DNA of 42,834 nucleotides from Candidatus Absconditabacterales bacterium (lineage in GTDB: Bacteria > Patescibacteriota > Gracilibacteria > Absconditabacterales > Absconditicoccaceae): the NCBI GenBank assembly GCA_937930555.1, contig CALHCH010000015.1, positions 1-42,834 on the forward strand, read 5' to 3'. The notes under the pieces are model-generated. The model was not told the DNA's origin. It was given only the letters and a program-made list of their open reading frames with translations, and made no database searches. Position 1 is the stretch's first letter. Each line of letters starts with the position of its first letter. Shown piece by piece: positions 1,609-36,962 of this stretch. The position numbers were made by a program, and so were the translations under genes.

Positions 1609-2559
1609 ATGAACCAACCAGTTACTTCAGTCAGTCAGAGACCCAAGGATTTTTCGGAATTTGTCTGACAGTCACATATCAAATCTATCCTAGAGACTGC
1701 TATCCAGAGTGCTCTCACCACGACCAAGCCACTTGGGCATCTACTGTTTTCTGGTAGTAGTGGATTTGGCAAGACGACACTGGCGACGATCACGGCGAGT
1801 ATGCTCGAGGCTCGTATCAAGATCATCACTTGATATGCTATATCCAAGCCATCCGAGCTCATCTCGATACTCAATATGATCGACGAGTGAGATGTGTTGT
1901 TTATCGATGAGATACATAGACTCAGAGCTCCTGTAGAGGAGGTGCTATACACTGCTATGGAGGATCACTGCGTAGATATGGTGATGCCAGACGGTCACCA
2001 TATCAGACTCCCCGTCTCTCCATTTACCCTCATCGGCGCCACTACCAAGCTCGAGTCTCTCACTCCAGCGTTGAAAAATAGATTTGTGTATCAATTTCAT
2101 ATGGAGCCATATACACAGAGTGAGAAACAATCTATCGTCCGTAGGTATATCGATCTCCAGCAGATCTTCTGTGATGACACGATGATAGTCACTATATCCG
2201 ACCATATAGCATCCGTACCTAGGCAGATAGCCAACTTTTGTCATCAATTAAAAGACTATCTCATAGCACACACATCCGATACCAAAGGCAAAATCAACAA
2301 AAGTACCCACACTCACGCATTGACGACAGACATACGGACAGACTTCCGATCTCGGACAGCACTAGAAAAAGGCGGTATCACACCACTCCACCAGCGCTAT
2401 CTCAGCATACTCTCGGAGTCAGAGACCGATCCCGTCTGACTCAGGACCTTATCGGCCAAACTCGGTATGTCAGAAAAAGCTATCGAAAACGATATAGAGC
2501 CATTGTTGTTTGAGCTGGATAGAATTAGAAAGACTAAGAGGGGGAGGGTGTTGAAATAG
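1609..2559 (+). CDS. ruvB: Holliday junction branch migration helicase RuvB
   Basis: With UGA=Gly: RPKDFSEFVGQSHIKSILETAI..., Walker A LLFSGSSGFGKTT, Walker B EGDVLFIDEIHRL, TLIGATTKLESLTPALKNRF; TAG stop. Confidence 0.93.
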
Positions 2560-2577
2560 TTGGTATATGGCTATCGC

Positions 2578-2612
2578 AAATCCTCCCCAGCCCTCCTTTG
2601 TCAAGGAAGGAG
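2578..2612 (+). repeat. Outer inverted repeat, left copy
   Basis: AAATCCTCCCCAGCCCTCCTTTGTCAAGGAAGGAG; matches the reverse complement of 3103-3133. Confidence 0.7.
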
Positions 2613-2624
2613 TACGTAAGGTTT

Positions 2625-2666
2625 GTCATCCTGAGCGTAGTGCAACGGAGTCGAAGGGTGCGACTC
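2625..2666 (+). repeat. REP-like repeat, inner left copy
   Basis: GTCATCCTGAGCGTAGTGCAACGGAGTCGAAGGGTGCGACTC. Confidence 0.75.
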
Positions 2667-2699
2667 ACGTTGATTAGTAATCTTACAACAAACCATATC

Positions 2700-2976
2700 A
2701 TGAAAACATATCGAGTATATATAGTACAATGCAATGATTGAAGCTACTATACATGAGTGGCCAATAACTTGGAAACAAGGCTACAGGAACATAATTATTC
2801 AGAAAATAAGAATAGCTACACATACAACAGAAGACCAGTACATCTAGTATATCAAGAAGAATGATGATCTATACAGGATGAAATACAGATAGAAAAACCA
2901 AATCAAGGGTCGATCTAGACATAAGAAGGAGCTGTTGATATCTTGAAATCACGATGAGCTAAAATGAGTGAGATAG
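2700..2976 (+). pseudogene. GIY-YIG nuclease family (UPF0213-like), apparently frameshifted near 2897-2900
   Basis: MKTYRVYIVQCNDGSYYTGVANNLETRLQEHNYSENKNSYTYNRRPVHLVYQEEGGSIQDEIQIEK in frame 1, then QIKGRSRHKKELLISGN continues one base out of frame after GAAAAACC. Confidence 0.75.
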
Positions 2977-3024
2977 TCGCACCCTTCGACTATGTCTTCG
3001 TGCCTCAGACAAGCTCAGGATGAC
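2975..3024 (-). repeat. REP-like repeat, inner right copy (inverted)
   Basis: AGTCGCACCCTTCGACTATGTCTTCGTGCCTCAGACAAGCTCAGGATGAC; inverted relative to 2625-2666. Confidence 0.75.
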
Positions 3025-3102
3025 AGCGAGAAGGCAGCATTTAGAAAGTAAAGTTTAAACTAGAGCTTGTCATTCTAAGTTGAGCGATAGCCCTATATGT
3101 CT

Positions 3103-3133
3103 CCCCCTTGATAAAGGGGGATAAGGGGGATTT
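3103..3133 (-). repeat. Outer inverted repeat, right copy
   Basis: CCCCCTTGATAAAGGGGGATAAGGGGGATTT. Confidence 0.7.
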
Positions 3134-3176
3134 GAAAACAATTGAAAACCAATCACTATTGACTACAAACAAACCA

Positions 3177-4184
3177 ATGAAAACTAAACTTCTCTTCACC
3201 TGAGAGTCAGTATATCAAGTCCACGAAGCACTTTCTTATCGGAAAGATAATTTTGTGAATAAATACGGTAAAGAGTGACTGCATATATTTCGTCATGATG
3301 AGCTGGATGTAGGTCAGATACAGTCGGCACTGATGGGAGGTGGGTTTTTTGCCGCCAAAAGTCTCGTGGTGATATATGGTATCCCCAGAGACAATATCAC
3401 GACCAATTCAGCTAAGGCAGCTGAAGCGCAGCCTGTAGAGGAATTGCTACAAAAGCATCGAGAGCAAATACCAGAAGACAATATCCTCATCCTCGTGTCC
3501 TACAAACCAGACAAAAGGACCAAAAGTTATAAGTTTTTTTCCAAACATGCAGAACTCAAAGAATTTAAACCAAAAAAACCGAAAGATCTCGTACCGTTTG
3601 TACTAAGTAGGGCGACCAATCTCCAGGACGAGACCAAATCACTGATCTCCACAGCTCAGGCACAGATGATCATCGCCAGCGTAGGACCCACTATGTACAA
3701 TCTCGCACACGAATCACAAAAACTCCAATACTATGCCCAATACCATCAGCTAGAGATGCTCAGTGACGAACAAATACAGGGCCTGATATACTCACAGTCC
3801 GAGTGAGATAACTTTAAAATCCTAGATAGCATTGTCACCGATCCATCCAAAGTCATACCCCTCATAGACGAGGCAAGAGATGACGGTACGGATATTTTTC
3901 AGTTTTTGGGTATGTTGTACCGATGACTCAAGATCATCCTATGAGTGTGTGAGCTACACGATGCAGGCGTCACATCTAGCAAGGAAGTTGCTAGCACGCT
4001 CAAGGTGCATCCATTTGCCGCATCCAAACAACGAAGTAAGGCCCAGACATTTCAATCAAAAAGGACTCAGATAGAGTCATTGTATCTCTCACTCCTACAT
4101 ATGGATCGAGACATCAAGACTGGGAGATTTCCCGCTGAGTGAGCATGGGTGCAGATCAAGAGTCTAGTGAGTAAGATTGGGTAA
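3177..4184 (+). CDS. holA: DNA polymerase III subunit delta
   Basis: MKTKLLFTGESVYQVHEAL...HIFRHDELDVGQIQSALMGGGFFAAKSLVVIYGIP..., C-terminal helical region ...GAWVQIKSLVSKIG, TAA stop; 336 codons with UGA=Gly. Confidence 0.8.
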
Positions 4185-4208
4185 GACTTTCTAGATATAA
4201 AAAAAAGC

Positions 4209-4244
4209 CTACCACTCTCATAATTCAGAGGAGAGTTTTGGTAG
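4209..4244 (-). terminator. Stem-loop followed by T-run on the minus strand
   Basis: CTACCACTCTC...GAGAGTTTTGGTAG; poly-A on + (4201-4206) is poly-T on -. Confidence 0.7.
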
Positions 4245-4701
4245 ACATCTTAGTTGCAATTTCTTGACTCACTGGATACTCCTCAGTATCAGATACAGAA
4301 CTACCTGCAATAACTTTAAGATCCAACATTACAGGTATTTTATGCAATTTGCTGTATATCACCATCAGTGAAAAGAACTGTGTTTCAATAAATTGAATTG
4401 AAGGCTTTTTCTTGTCATCTGATTTAAATATAATTTTAATACTATGTTCGAGCAAAATAATTGATCTTATCTGGCATTTTAACGCATCCAAGAAATCCTC
4501 CATTAGAAGATACTCACTAAAATCATATTGTAAGTTAATTGAACTATCGTTGATAAAGGACGACAAATCATCAAAAAGAAATTCATTTATTCTGTAAAGA
4601 TAGAAGCAATCTTTCTTATCTTGTCGATATGTAAATCTCAAATGATAATCACCTTTTCTCACACAATCAATCTTTTTTATATGTACGGTATTCATATTCA
4701 C
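4225..4701 (-). CDS. Hypothetical protein, UGA-free ORF ending at TGA
   Basis: 158 aa, AT-rich, no in-frame TGA; TGA at the end lies inside the terminator hairpin. Reading TGA as Gly would run on antisense to holA. Confidence 0.6.
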   Translation of the reverse strand: MNMNTVHIKKIDCVRKGDYHLRFTYRQDKKDCFYLYRINEFLFDDLSSFINDSSINLQYDFSEYLLMEDFLDALKCQIRSIILLEHSIKIIFKSDDKKKPSIQFIETQFFSLMVIYSKLHKIPVMLDLKVIAGSSVSDTEEYPVSQEIATKMSTKTLL

Positions 4702-4711
4702 TTTTTATTGA

Positions 4712-5137
4712 TCAGCTAATACTCTCTTTGTGCACACTAGCCTTATCTACCAATGATGCATCCACCTCAAATGACATACTGACAAGATCTGCATCAAAGC
4801 GTCTAGCCACCATAATCGCGGTTAGATGTGGCATTGGGCACATAACTTCTCCAGCTACATCTCTGAATAGCAATACTGCAGAATGGACATCAAAAATGAT
4901 TTTGGTCGGCTTGGCATCCTTAGCAACATTTTTTCTCAGTAATTTATATATAACATACGAATTACTAATTTTTGAATTATTAAATCGCGAATCTTTCATT
5001 AATCCATCTATTTCAGATCGTAAATGATCTAAAATCGTAGGAAAGAAAAATACAACTTTGTGGTTATCTTCACCAACAAGTAGTGAGACATTGTTGTTTT
5101 TATGATATTCTTTAAATTTCATGATAATGTAACTCAT
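4712..5137 (-). CDS. Hypothetical protein, UGA-free ORF ending at TGA
   Basis: 141 aa (MSYIIMKFKEYHKNNNVSLLVGEDNHK...). No internal TGA. Under code 25 it would extend to TAA at 4616-4618 and overlap the next gene. Confidence 0.6.
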   Translation of the reverse strand: MSYIIMKFKEYHKNNNVSLLVGEDNHKVVFFFPTILDHLRSEIDGLMKDSRFNNSKISNSYVIYKLLRKNVAKDAKPTKIIFDVHSAVLLFRDVAGEVMCPMPHLTAIMVARRFDADLVSMSFEVDASLVDKASVHKESIS

Positions 5138-5365
5138 TTTCTTTGTTTTTTTTATTTTTTAATCACACCTCCCACGAGCATATAGCCGTAGTGATGCCTT
5201 GTTTCGTATACATTAAAGAACATTTCCCTTAGCTTTACATACTATATATAGTATACATCATATATTGCAAGAGCTTCTCATCTGATTTTTATTATGAGAG
5301 TTAGCATACTTCATCTGATACTCCCGTAGCAAGTATCCTTGTCGGATTATCACCAAAAAACGAAA

Positions 5366-5644
5366 CTACTTTATCCTCACCTCTTTCAGCTCATACTCAT
5401 AGCCATTATCAGCGAGTAGTGTATTTAGCTCATCACGGAGCTGGACTCTCGTCACAAACCACTGCATCTTGTCCTCTCTCGGATCGAGCTGGATATGTAG
5501 CTTATGCCATCTCAGATATCCAGACAGCTCGTCAGGATACTTGCTTTTGTGTTTTATTGATTGTATGAGAAATGCTCCTATACTCAGTTGAGTGAGGTTT
5601 TTTTGCCAGAGTCTTTGTTGGAGGTGGGTAAACGCGTGTTTCAT
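5366..5644 (-). CDS. Hypothetical protein, weakly DUF721/DciA-like
   Basis: 92 aa MKHAFTHLQQRLWQKNLTQLSIGAFLIQS...LHIQLDPREDKMQWFVTRVQLRDELNTLLA, TAG stop; family assignment tentative. Confidence 0.55.
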   Translation of the reverse strand: MKHAFTHLQQRLWQKNLTQLSIGAFLIQSIKHKSKYPDELSGYLRWHKLHIQLDPREDKMQWFVTRVQLRDELNTLLADNGYEYELKEVRIK

Positions 5645-10740: not shown

Positions 10741-13449
10741 ATGGATATCTACGAATTTGAACTACGCTACAAGGCATATGATGGACTCTCTACCGCTCTA
10801 TGATTGGATCGAGATGAGTCGGTACTTTTGTGATTGGTGCCCAAGACTGGTGGATGAGTGCTAGAGACCAAGCTCGTAGAGACATCAGTAGAGACACTAC
10901 ATATCAAGACACTTGAGACATATACAGATCACAAACAATCTATCATAGACTCCTCTACACAGATCGTAGAGCTTACAGGCAAGCCACTCTCAGAGTATAT
11001 ACAGAGACTAGAATACGAGCTCAAGGTGGTGCACGAGATGTGATACAATACCTACTTTCTCATCGTAGAGGACTATATATCACGAGCCAGAGACCATGAT
11101 ATAGTCGTGTGACCTGGGAGATGATCGTGTGCAGGATCGCTGCTGTCATATGCTATATGAGTGACAGATCTAGATCCATTGCAGTATGATCTGATTTTTG
11201 AGAGATTTCTCAATCCTGCGCGTATCTCTATGCCAGATATAGATACTGATTTTGAGGATACGCAGAGAGATAGGGTGATAGAGTATATGTCACACAAGTA
11301 TGGTGCATCCAAGGTAGCACATATCGGGACATATATGACACTGGCAGCCAAAGCTGCATTTAAGGATGTGGCGAGAGTGATGGGAGTCAAGTTTGTAGAT
11401 GCAAATAGACTAGGAAATCTGATCACCGAGTCTACCATACCAGACTCTATAGACAACAACAAAGATCTCCAAAATGCGATCGCTGATGATAGCAGACTGA
11501 GTAAGATCATAGAATACGCTACGGCCCTAGAAGGAACGGTCAGACAGACTGGTGTACATGCCTGTGGGATGATCATCGCTCCAGAGGATACCCACCACTA
11601 CTCTGCCATCCAGCACCCACCCAAATCTGGGAGTAGCTCCAGAGATGAATCTAGAGTGGTATCTCAATATGATGGGGGTACGGTAGAAGATCTGTGACTA
11701 CTCAAGATGGATGTACTGGGCCTGAGAAACCTCAGTATCATCAAAAACACGATCAGAATCCTCAACGCAAAGGCAAAAACCGAGTGAAAAGCACTCGAAC
11801 CGATGTATCAAAAATTTTTGGATACTATGTTGTTTCATCCGCCATTGGATGACACATATGTATACAAAAAGATTTTTTGGAACTGAGATACGACATGAGT
11901 ATTTCAGTTTGAGTCCGATGGGATGAAACAGTGGTTAAAAAAGCTCAAGCCTACTGAGTTTGATGATCTGATCGCGATGGTATCGCTATATCGTCCCGGA
12001 CCTATGGAGTTTATCCCAAACTATGTGGATAGAAAACATGAGATAGAGCCTGTCTCATATATGCAGCTAGATCTAGAGAGTACGCTGAGGAGAAAATACG
12101 ACAAAGAAACGATGGAACAAGAAAAAGAAAAACTCATAGCAGATCTGTGACCTATCATGGATCCTACCTATGGTATCGCTGTATATCAGGAGCAACTCAT
12201 GCGTCTGGTACAGTCTATGGCAGGGTTTAGTATGTCAGAAGCCGACACTGTGAGGAAATGAGTAGGTAAAAAAATCCAAGCTGTGATAGAAAAAGTAAAA
12301 AAAGATTTTGTAAAAAAATGAGAAGAGCATAGACAATACAAACCAGAAACTACTATGTGGGTATACGAAAAAATGATCGAGCCTGCAGCGAGATATTCAT
12401 TTAATAAATCTCATGCTGCCTGCTATGCGTATATCTCCTACCAGACCGCATATCTCAAGGCACATCATCCCATCGAGTTTCAGGCTGCATTGCTCAGGTC
12501 AGCAGAAGAAAGTCCGGATAGGTTGGCGCAGTTTATTGATGAGGCACAGATGCAGTGATATAGCATCCAGCTCCCAGACATAAACACTGCCTACGAGCAC
12601 GTAGCTGCCATTTGAGACAAGGTATATCTGTGATTTGCTGCGATCAAGGGTATATGATCAGAGGTAGCACAGCATATAGAATCCGAAAGAATCAAAAATG
12701 GACCATATACCACGCTCCCTGATTTTCTCACAAGAAACCAAGACTATATCAACAAAAAAACCATAGAATCGTTGACACTCTCTGGAGCACGAGATGGTTT
12801 TGCTGATCGTCAGACACTCCGAGACAACGGCAAAAACATCCTCGATCGAACCAAAGCAGAACAGTCTGGATGACAAGCAGCTGGCTTGTTTGCTGCTACG
12901 GTAGTGGATGGATCAGATCTCACCCTCACTCCATCTGACCCACCGACCAAAATGGAGATGTTGGCAACCGAACATAAGGTATTCAATACGTTTGTGTCTG
13001 GTCATCCTTTTGATGGATTGTATAGCTATATGAGAGGCAAATACGGTTTTATCTCTATGTTTAAGGACAAGGAGTGATATGGTGAGTTTACCTTTTTGTG
13101 ATATATCAAAAGTATCTCCAAAAATGGAAGATGAGAATGATTTTTTATCAAAATGGAAGATGTATCAGGAGATGTGGAGTTTTATGTGACCAACAAGCTA
13201 GATCTAGTACCGTTTATGATCGTGTGAGTGAGATGATATATGGGTAGGAGAGGAAGGATAGATCAGCTCACTGTCTATGACCTAGAATCACTCATCACCA
13301 AAGCAAAAAATAACGATAAATACGATGTAGAGCAAACAGTCTGAGCTATCAGAAGAGAGAGATTTGCCAATCAGGATACGCCTAGACCAGTCCCAGCTCA
13401 AGCGCAAGTGGCATCACCTCATCCATCTGACATACCACCAGATATGTAA
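10741..13449 (+). CDS. dnaE: DNA polymerase III subunit alpha, without recognisable N-terminal PHP domain
   Basis: With UGA=Gly: [83 protein letters not shown]...; C-terminal OB-fold; TAA stop; in-frame TAA at 10729-10731 upstream. Confidence 0.93.
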
Positions 13450-16795: not shown

Positions 16796-17302
16796 TTACA
16801 TGGTTATCAAATACATATTTTTTCAGAACCCACCCATAGGATGCTCAATTACAATTACTTTACTTGTCTTGTCATAATGCGATAAGACATAAGTTTTTTG
16901 CTTCTTGTCTACTAGTTTTTTGACCCTACCTTGTAGGCCCTTATCATATCTATTCTCATTGTATAGGGTTAGTGTCTGCTCACAAGATTTTGCAAGAGCA
17001 GAAACGTCAACTATAAATTTCTCTCCACGTCTAATAGGAAAATTCTTAGGAATAGATTTTTTCACAAGCTTTAGAATACTACTCTCCTGCTTATCGAGTT
17101 CTGTATACGTCTTCCCCCACAATACAAGACCTAAACTAGTCACTATTGCTCCTATGAGAAATACATAACCATAAGGTATATCTGATTCATGTGACTCTAC
17201 TGGGATAGCAATGAAAGCAAAAAAAACTATACCAAGCACGGTCATAATTTGTCCCAATACTCTCAAGATCAATCTTTTCTCAAAATTTAAGTTTTCAAAC
17301 AT
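16796..17302 (-). CDS. Hypothetical membrane protein, UGA-free up to a TGA at 16823-16825
   Basis: MFENLNFEKRLILRVLGQIMTVLGIVFFAFIAIP...; TGA after HPMGGF, next stop TAA 16796-16798. End is 16823 if TGA is a stop here, 16796 under code 25. Confidence 0.65.
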
Positions 17303-17306
17303 TGTT

Positions 17307-17747
17307 TTAATTTTTATTTTTTATTATATCCTCACCCACTCGGCGAGGATTGTCTTTGTTGTCACTTCGAAAAATGTACAATCCAAAAATACTGATTAAA
17401 ATAGTTGCAATTTGAAATATTTGCAAAAAATTGAGTAGATTGCTATCAATCTCTTGAGTGTGCCTCATGCTCAATATGAACACATTCATTACCAAAAATA
17501 ATGACGCATAGTACAAAATAGATTTATTTATAATAGAAATCTTATATTGATTGCGATATTTATTTGCCACTCTAGAGACAAAAACAAATAACAATAATCC
17601 GAGAATAATCCCAATCGGAGCAGCAAGAAATTTGAATCGATCAATCCAAATAAATAAGAATAAGAACAAGGATAATACAATCACAAAAAGCATGGTCTGT
17701 AAAATAACCTTATCAATATTTTTATAAAAAAATGTTAATGAAGCCAT
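17307..17747 (-). CDS. Hypothetical multi-TM membrane protein, UGA-free
   Basis: 146 aa MASLTFFYKNIDKVILQTMLFVIVLSLFLFLF..., TAA stop. Confidence 0.65.
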   Translation of the reverse strand: MASLTFFYKNIDKVILQTMLFVIVLSLFLFLFIWIDRFKFLAAPIGIILGLLLFVFVSRVANKYRNQYKISIINKSILYYASLFLVMNVFILSMRHTQEIDSNLLNFLQIFQIATILISIFGLYIFRSDNKDNPRRVGEDIIKNKN

Positions 17748-36560: not shown

Positions 36561-36962
36561 TTAGAAATATCCTTCTAACGAATGATGTTTTGATATTGAC
36601 TCAAGACGGTCTTCATTTAAGTAACTATAAATTGGTTTCATTTCTGTGCCACTGTATCCAATACTTTGATTACTACCATTTATTGATACGATTCCAAGAG
36701 CATTCAGTTCTACTCTAGATTTGCCTTCTCTTACAAGTAATTCACTAATTACAAAAGAACATATTACGTCATTATAGGGAAATACATATTCCTTCTTTGT
36801 GACATTCTCTAGACAAGACTGTTTTACAAATTCGTAGTTTCCGTTTTCAATTTCATTAGTTACAGTTTTCAAGATTTCAGCTCTCTTGTCGAGCTTTACA
36901 TCAAACAAATTACAGCTAAAAAATAAGACAGCTAAAACCATCATAATAATTACTCTTTTCAT
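36561..36962 (-). CDS. Hypothetical lipoprotein, UGA-free
   Basis: MKRVIIMMVLAVLFFSCNLFDVKLDKRAEIL... lipobox (LFFSC); TAA stop; followed by a stem-loop. Confidence 0.65.
   Translation of the reverse strand: MKRVIIMMVLAVLFFSCNLFDVKLDKRAEILKTVTNEIENGNYEFVKQSCLENVTKKEYVFPYNDVICSFVISELLVREGKSRVELNALGIVSINGSNQSIGYSGTEMKPIYSYLNEDRLESISKHHSLEGYF

Follow-up and report, generated by a model that had tools for sequence, protein, structure and literature searches.

Code-11-compatible phages of Gracilibacteria and Absconditabacteria have no in-frame TGA, and they carry back-up TAA or TAG codons close behind TGA (PMC10746230). In the absconditabacterium Vampirococcus lugosii, 126 genes have been attributed to horizontal gene transfer on the basis of phylogeny, and it has been speculated that TGA readthrough makes foreign proteins aberrant (PMC8080830). 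Opinions differ on whether stop-codon reassignment is a barrier to foreign genes, and direct cases have been lacking (PMC8080830).

In this study, we followed up a sequence-only reading of a 42,834-nucleotide stretch of DNA from a Candidatus Absconditabacterales bacterium, referred to here as the window. That reading had described two neighbouring ORFs, P0001 and P0002, as a standard-code-like island. As in the code-11-compatible phages, the pair is free of in-frame TGA in a host using code 25, and TGA is possible as its terminal codon. However, the phages have close back-up stops, whereas the pair has none near (the next in-frame TAA or TAG lies 32 and 78 codons on), and the pair is chromosomal, with holA on one side, and shows neither phage genes nor viral matches. 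As in V. lugosii, these would be foreign genes in a host with TGA as glycine. In that organism the case was made from phylogeny, whereas here it is made from TGA absence together with a terminal TGA, in genes without homologues, and the sites of the predicted readthrough can be pinpointed in the sequence.

Results

Genetic code of the host

The window is the entire contig C15 of genome G000 (a MAG of 1.2 Mb in 89 contigs, 85.5% complete). The gene for DnaE at positions 10741-13449 contains 26 TGA codons, 16 of which could be aligned to Thermus DnaE. Thermus has glycine at 12 of these 16 columns, the background being 49 of 624 aligned columns. A search of G000 with the prfB model found no RF2 in this 85% complete MAG; the one release factor match is RF1-like and falls below the prfB cut-off. 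The same model gave one RF1-like release factor below the cut-off in every family member with a match, and RF2 above the cut-off in 11 standard-code members of the class. Taken together, the glycine columns of DnaE and the failure to find RF2 establish that the host reads TGA as glycine. Neither tRNA-Gly(UCA) nor tRNA-Gly(UCC) was present among 29 tRNA matches and 60 sampled loci of the incomplete MAG, and a tmRNA search of G000 at this completeness recovered none. As checked on DnaE and RF2 absence, the host code is thus that of Gracilibacteria/SR1 (NCBI table 25), and the pair differs from it in that both ORFs are without any TGA-Gly.

The ORF pair and its predicted readthrough

The features of the locus are as follows.
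3177-4184, plus strand: holA, DNA polymerase III delta subunit, a native code-25 gene with 6 TGA-Gly; left flank of a variable gap
3991-4224, minus strand: code-25 extension of P0001, 78 codons, antisense to the 3' end of holA
4200-4248, minus strand: terminator-like hairpin with U-run, -16.6 kcal/mol, z = -3.0; genome copy number 1
4225-4227, minus strand: TGA of P0001, a standard-code stop, in the apical loop of this hairpin
4225-4701, minus strand: downstream ORF P0001, 158 aa, starting at GTG 4701 or ATG 4695, TGA-free, two Gly codons (both GGT), stopping at TGA
4616-4711, minus strand: predicted readthrough tail of P0002, 32 codons (code 25) to the first in-frame TAA or TAG
4712-4714, minus strand: TGA of P0002, a stop in the standard code and, given host code 25, predicted to be Gly
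4712-5137, minus strand: upstream ORF P0002, 141 aa, ATG start, TGA-free, three Gly codons (all GGN), stopping at TGA
5366-5644, minus strand: P0007, a small conserved protein that bounds the variable gap on the right

Both ORFs are free of in-frame TGA in table 11 on the minus strand, both end at TGA, and both are AT-rich (GC of 0.304 for P0001 and 0.343 for P0002, as against 0.401 for the window), just as the sequence-only reading had stated. Open frames of this length are rare by chance: a table-11 stop-free frame of at least 141 codons appeared in only 4 of 1000 dinucleotide-shuffled versions of the region, and here two such frames stand in tandem. The codon usage of the pair is no outlier within the window. 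Alignment-free structure prediction yielded unusable models of the tested proteins, with pLDDT values of 34-40.

In the other genes of the window, TGA accounts for 314 of 905 Gly codons (34.7%). The TGA share of genes goes up as GC goes down. The pair has 5 GGN and 0 TGA codons (two Gly in P0001 and three in P0002), for which P = 0.12 at the window mean TGA share and P = 0.019 under a GC-dependent, overdispersed native model. With a 5% prior, the posterior of a TGA-free class for the pair is 0.72. With only five Gly codons (P about 0.02-0.12), the no-TGA argument is weak by itself. The combination of being TGA-free and ending at TGA is also partly circular, as a table-11 ORF that stops at TGA has none earlier; code-25 ORFs, in turn, end at TAA or TAG by construction. 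TGA absence in the pair alone is therefore suggestive, but not decisive, as a sign of a foreign code.

Under code 25, P0002 would be 173 aa long and end at 4616. Because the host is without RF2 and reads TGA as Gly, the P0002 protein would be lengthened by a tail of 32 residues, the codons of which overlap P0001 by 86 nt, out of frame, with a codon-position GC (0.19/0.41/0.22) that is not coding-like in that frame. P0001 would be 236 aa long and end at 3991, and its 78 additional codons overlap the holA 3' end at 3991-4184 in antisense, which agrees with the earlier statement that glycine at this TGA leads to tens of codons antisense to holA. The same TGA had been placed within a terminator hairpin, and it does lie in the 11-nt loop of a predicted terminator-like hairpin that is followed by U8 after the stem. 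The consensus terminator scan, which accepts loops of 3-8 nt only, did not list this hairpin. No in-frame TAA or TAG occurs between the P0001 TGA and the U-run; if the hairpin ends transcription, the P0001 message is probably without any stop codon. The stop signals of both genes are probably no longer functional in this host. Unproductive readthrough, as proposed in the sequence-only reading, fits the RF2 absence and a terminator standing ahead of any in-frame TAA or TAG, and it stays at the level of a prediction.

The holA gap among relatives

The left flank of the gap is assigned with confidence (Pfam DNA_pol3_delta_C, 8e-12, for HolA). Occupancy of the gap between holA and P0007 is patchy: it is about 140 bp long and empty in G012, 1.2 kb in the window, and 2.6 kb in G002, a member of the same genus, in which it holds five different minus-strand ORFs (P0013, P0012, P0015, P0016 and P0011). 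In G001, no island adjoins holA. Counted up to the first TGA, the G002 gap ORFs have 24 GGN and 0 TGA codons for Gly (P = 3e-9 in the overdispersed model), as compared with 125 TGA and 34 GGN in their neighbours; TGA writes about 61% of Gly in G002 overall and 79% beside the gap. In P0015, the first stop-type codon met is TGA, and in G003, P0014, which adjoins holA, meets TGA directly after its UVR-motif C-terminus. The UVR motif is real in the G002 and G003 gap genes P0014 and P0016, and weakly so in P0011. The frames of P0015 and P0016 differ and overlap (L045:8674-9673 in G002), and the two are possibly one frameshifted UVR-motif gene.

When the window pair was compared with the G002 gap genes, P0002 and P0012 gave p = 0.44, and P0001 and P0015 gave p = 0.007 among about ten comparisons. 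As similarity is at best marginal, what is shared is place and coding style, and the synteny is positional only. Orthology of P0002 and P0012, considered on account of their ends (VHKESIS and MHKASIK), was rejected for lack of significance and was not taken as a sign of TGA replacing TAA.

These comparisons bear on the possibility that the pair consists of native, Gly-poor, fast-evolving code-25 genes, in which a TGA-Gly happens to lie near the C-terminus, so that TGA would be no stop in them and the true proteins would have 173 and 236 aa, unless their ends have decayed. Five Gly codons make TGA absence only mildly unusual, and a TGA stop follows from how table-11 ORFs are drawn. However, the P0001 extension crosses a strong hairpin and U-run and is antisense to holA, that of P0002 runs over the following gene with a non-coding-like position GC, and the gap of G002, a host that otherwise uses TGA at 61-79%, has 0 TGA in 24 Gly codons. 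We consider native genes unlikely.

A genome-wide class of TGA-free genes

Sampling covered about 723 kb of G000 and 330 kb of G002. The per-gene TGA share is two-peaked in both genomes. Compared with a single overdispersed class, a mixture that includes a TGA-free class is preferred by 50 log units in G000 and by 85 in G002, and the TGA-free class makes up about 5% of the genes in G000 and 17% in G002. The class ends in 16 TAA, 8 TAG and 7 TGA in G000 (7/31 TGA) and in 30, 11 and 4, respectively, in G002 (4/45 TGA), these counts being rough since the filter drops extensions of >25% of length. Most TGA-enders of the class have an in-frame TAA or TAG 1-27 codons on, with one candidate at 66 and the pair at 32 and 78.

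The TGA-free genes of G002 form runs within contigs that also bear TGA-rich genes, which speaks against simple bin contamination. Such runs are located at the following positions.
L118:353-6382: TGA-free run in a G002 contig
L119:15326-18699: TGA-free run in a G002 contig
L120:13666-19138: TGA-free run in a G002 contig
L122:5692-10397: TGA-free run in a G002 contig

One G002 contig of 146 kb, for instance, opens with six consecutive TGA-free genes within 6.4 kb. Families represented in the G002 runs are OmpA-like, aldehyde dehydrogenase, NadD-like, adenylosuccinate-synthase-like and rhomboid; the class genes of G000 that were tested are mostly without a family.

A TGA-free gene of G000 at L267:11450-12100 has TGA followed at once by TAA, a tandem back-up stop. 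In the window, 16796-17302 and 17307-17747 (minus strand) form an AT-rich, TGA-poor tandem pair (11 GGN and 1 TGA; 4 GGN and 0 TGA) with no Pfam assignment for either; in 16796-17302 the TGA stands 9 codons ahead of TAA, and this gene, too, may be an import that ends at TGA and has a back-up stop. An AT-rich, lipoprotein-like ORF at 36561-36962 (minus strand, GC 0.31) has 7 Gly codons, none of them TGA.

Searches for homologues and donors

P0002 had no match in Pfam, PHROG, NCBIfam, genome_contigs, the relatives or the viral collections. P0001 had none in Pfam, phage records (tblastn) or viral contigs, and none in 353 genomes of the class by a pattern-based scan that reaches close relatives only. 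The pair has no PHROG match and no adjoining phage genes. For the G002 gap genes, P0016 had no match in phages (tblastn), and P0011 gave marginal matches only, to the UVR region, in plasmids (tblastn). A code-25 homologue with internal TGA, or a conserved extension past the TGA, would speak against the sequence-only reading; neither was seen, there being no significant homologue at all.

A relationship to bifunctional nucleases (BFN/DUF151, PF02577) was considered for P0001 and P0002, whose C-terminal halves look similar to these enzymes by eye, and was examined using Pfam, PF02577 across 59 genomes, our own profile and shuffle tests. Pfam gave no match. Our own profile drew on BFNs of Bacteroidota and Patescibacteria, and 18% of shuffled sequences match it equally well, so the assignment was dropped. 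An end-to-end hhalign match of P0011 to BFN-UVR was reduced to the UVR motif after realignment. A scan of genome_contigs with an Acinetobacter plasmid BFN mostly matched its insertion-sequence-derived N-terminus.

Discussion

The pair was probably acquired recently from a standard-code source, either a bacterium or a mobile element, and inserted into the variable gap between holA and P0007, its TGA stops being left unrepaired. This is the best-supported reading of the locus: standard-code import, as first suggested from the sequence, draws its support mainly from comparison (the G002 gap with its 0/24 TGA, and the TGA-free class) and not from the two ORFs themselves, while the donor homology search came back empty. 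The recipient genome would be of the Gracilibacteria/Absconditabacteria type with code 25. Residence in this host would have been too short for TGA-Gly codons to be gained and for the TGA stops to be mutated to TAA. As TGA to TAA takes one transition and GGA to TGA one transversion, a recent arrival would be expected to show exactly such a state. If the genes are expressed, translation of P0002 would read through 32 codons into the next gene, and that of P0001 would proceed into the gene's own terminator and arrive at the transcript end without a stop. The expected products, an aberrant P0002 and a nonstop P0001 message, would possibly amount to little or nothing useful, an effect put forward in general form in the V. 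lugosii study (PMC8080830).

Cargo of a dual-code phage is an improbable source. Phages of this kind, free of in-frame TGA and equipped with back-up stops, have been described (PMC10746230), and most of the sampled TGA-free genes that end at TGA are followed a short way on by an in-frame TAA or TAG. However, the pair itself lacks a near back-up stop (32 and 78 codons), neither PHROG, phage nor viral-collection matches nor adjoining phage genes were found, and prophages integrated in these hosts show dense TGA use (PMC10746230).

De novo or decaying ORFs (pseudogenes, or frameshift or assembly errors near both 3' ends) are similarly doubtful: the ORFs have no homologues, a shift of one base would bring natural ends into frame at the TAA codons in the 4248-4250 region and at 4702-4704, which are now out of frame, and the G002 gap also holds a probable frameshifted or overlapping pair (P0015/P0016), but this account needs two independent errors and has to explain two long frames with none of the three stop codons where the other frames of the two genes carry 1-11 TGA each, a point that is itself weak, about 2.1 TGA being expected under codon-position shuffling (P(0) = 0.11).

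Recent acquisition of the pair leads to a broader and much more tentative idea, namely that the TGA=Gly code of this genus might be a live, leaky filter on incoming genes. Imports would then appear as the TGA-free class (about 5-17%), with TGA stops persisting near back-up stops, and the holA-gap pair would be a case without back-up, one message being forced to be nonstop by its own terminator. If this is true, TGA content would gauge the residence time since transfer. The genome-wide TGA-free class could serve as a homology-independent marker of recent acquisition, also for genes without relatives, and genes with a terminal TGA and no back-up stop are concrete sites at which to look for the predicted readthrough or nonstop outcome. 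Standard annotation is wrong at such sites under either code, table 25 giving over-long, overlapping proteins.

Repeats were also noted. The intergenic region at 2550-3180 of the window is made up of short repeats, which also turn up at many other sites of the sampled genome. A repeat of about 150 bp is interspersed at about 20 sites (L044:12200-12352 and many G003 contig ends), and these are often the ends of contigs.
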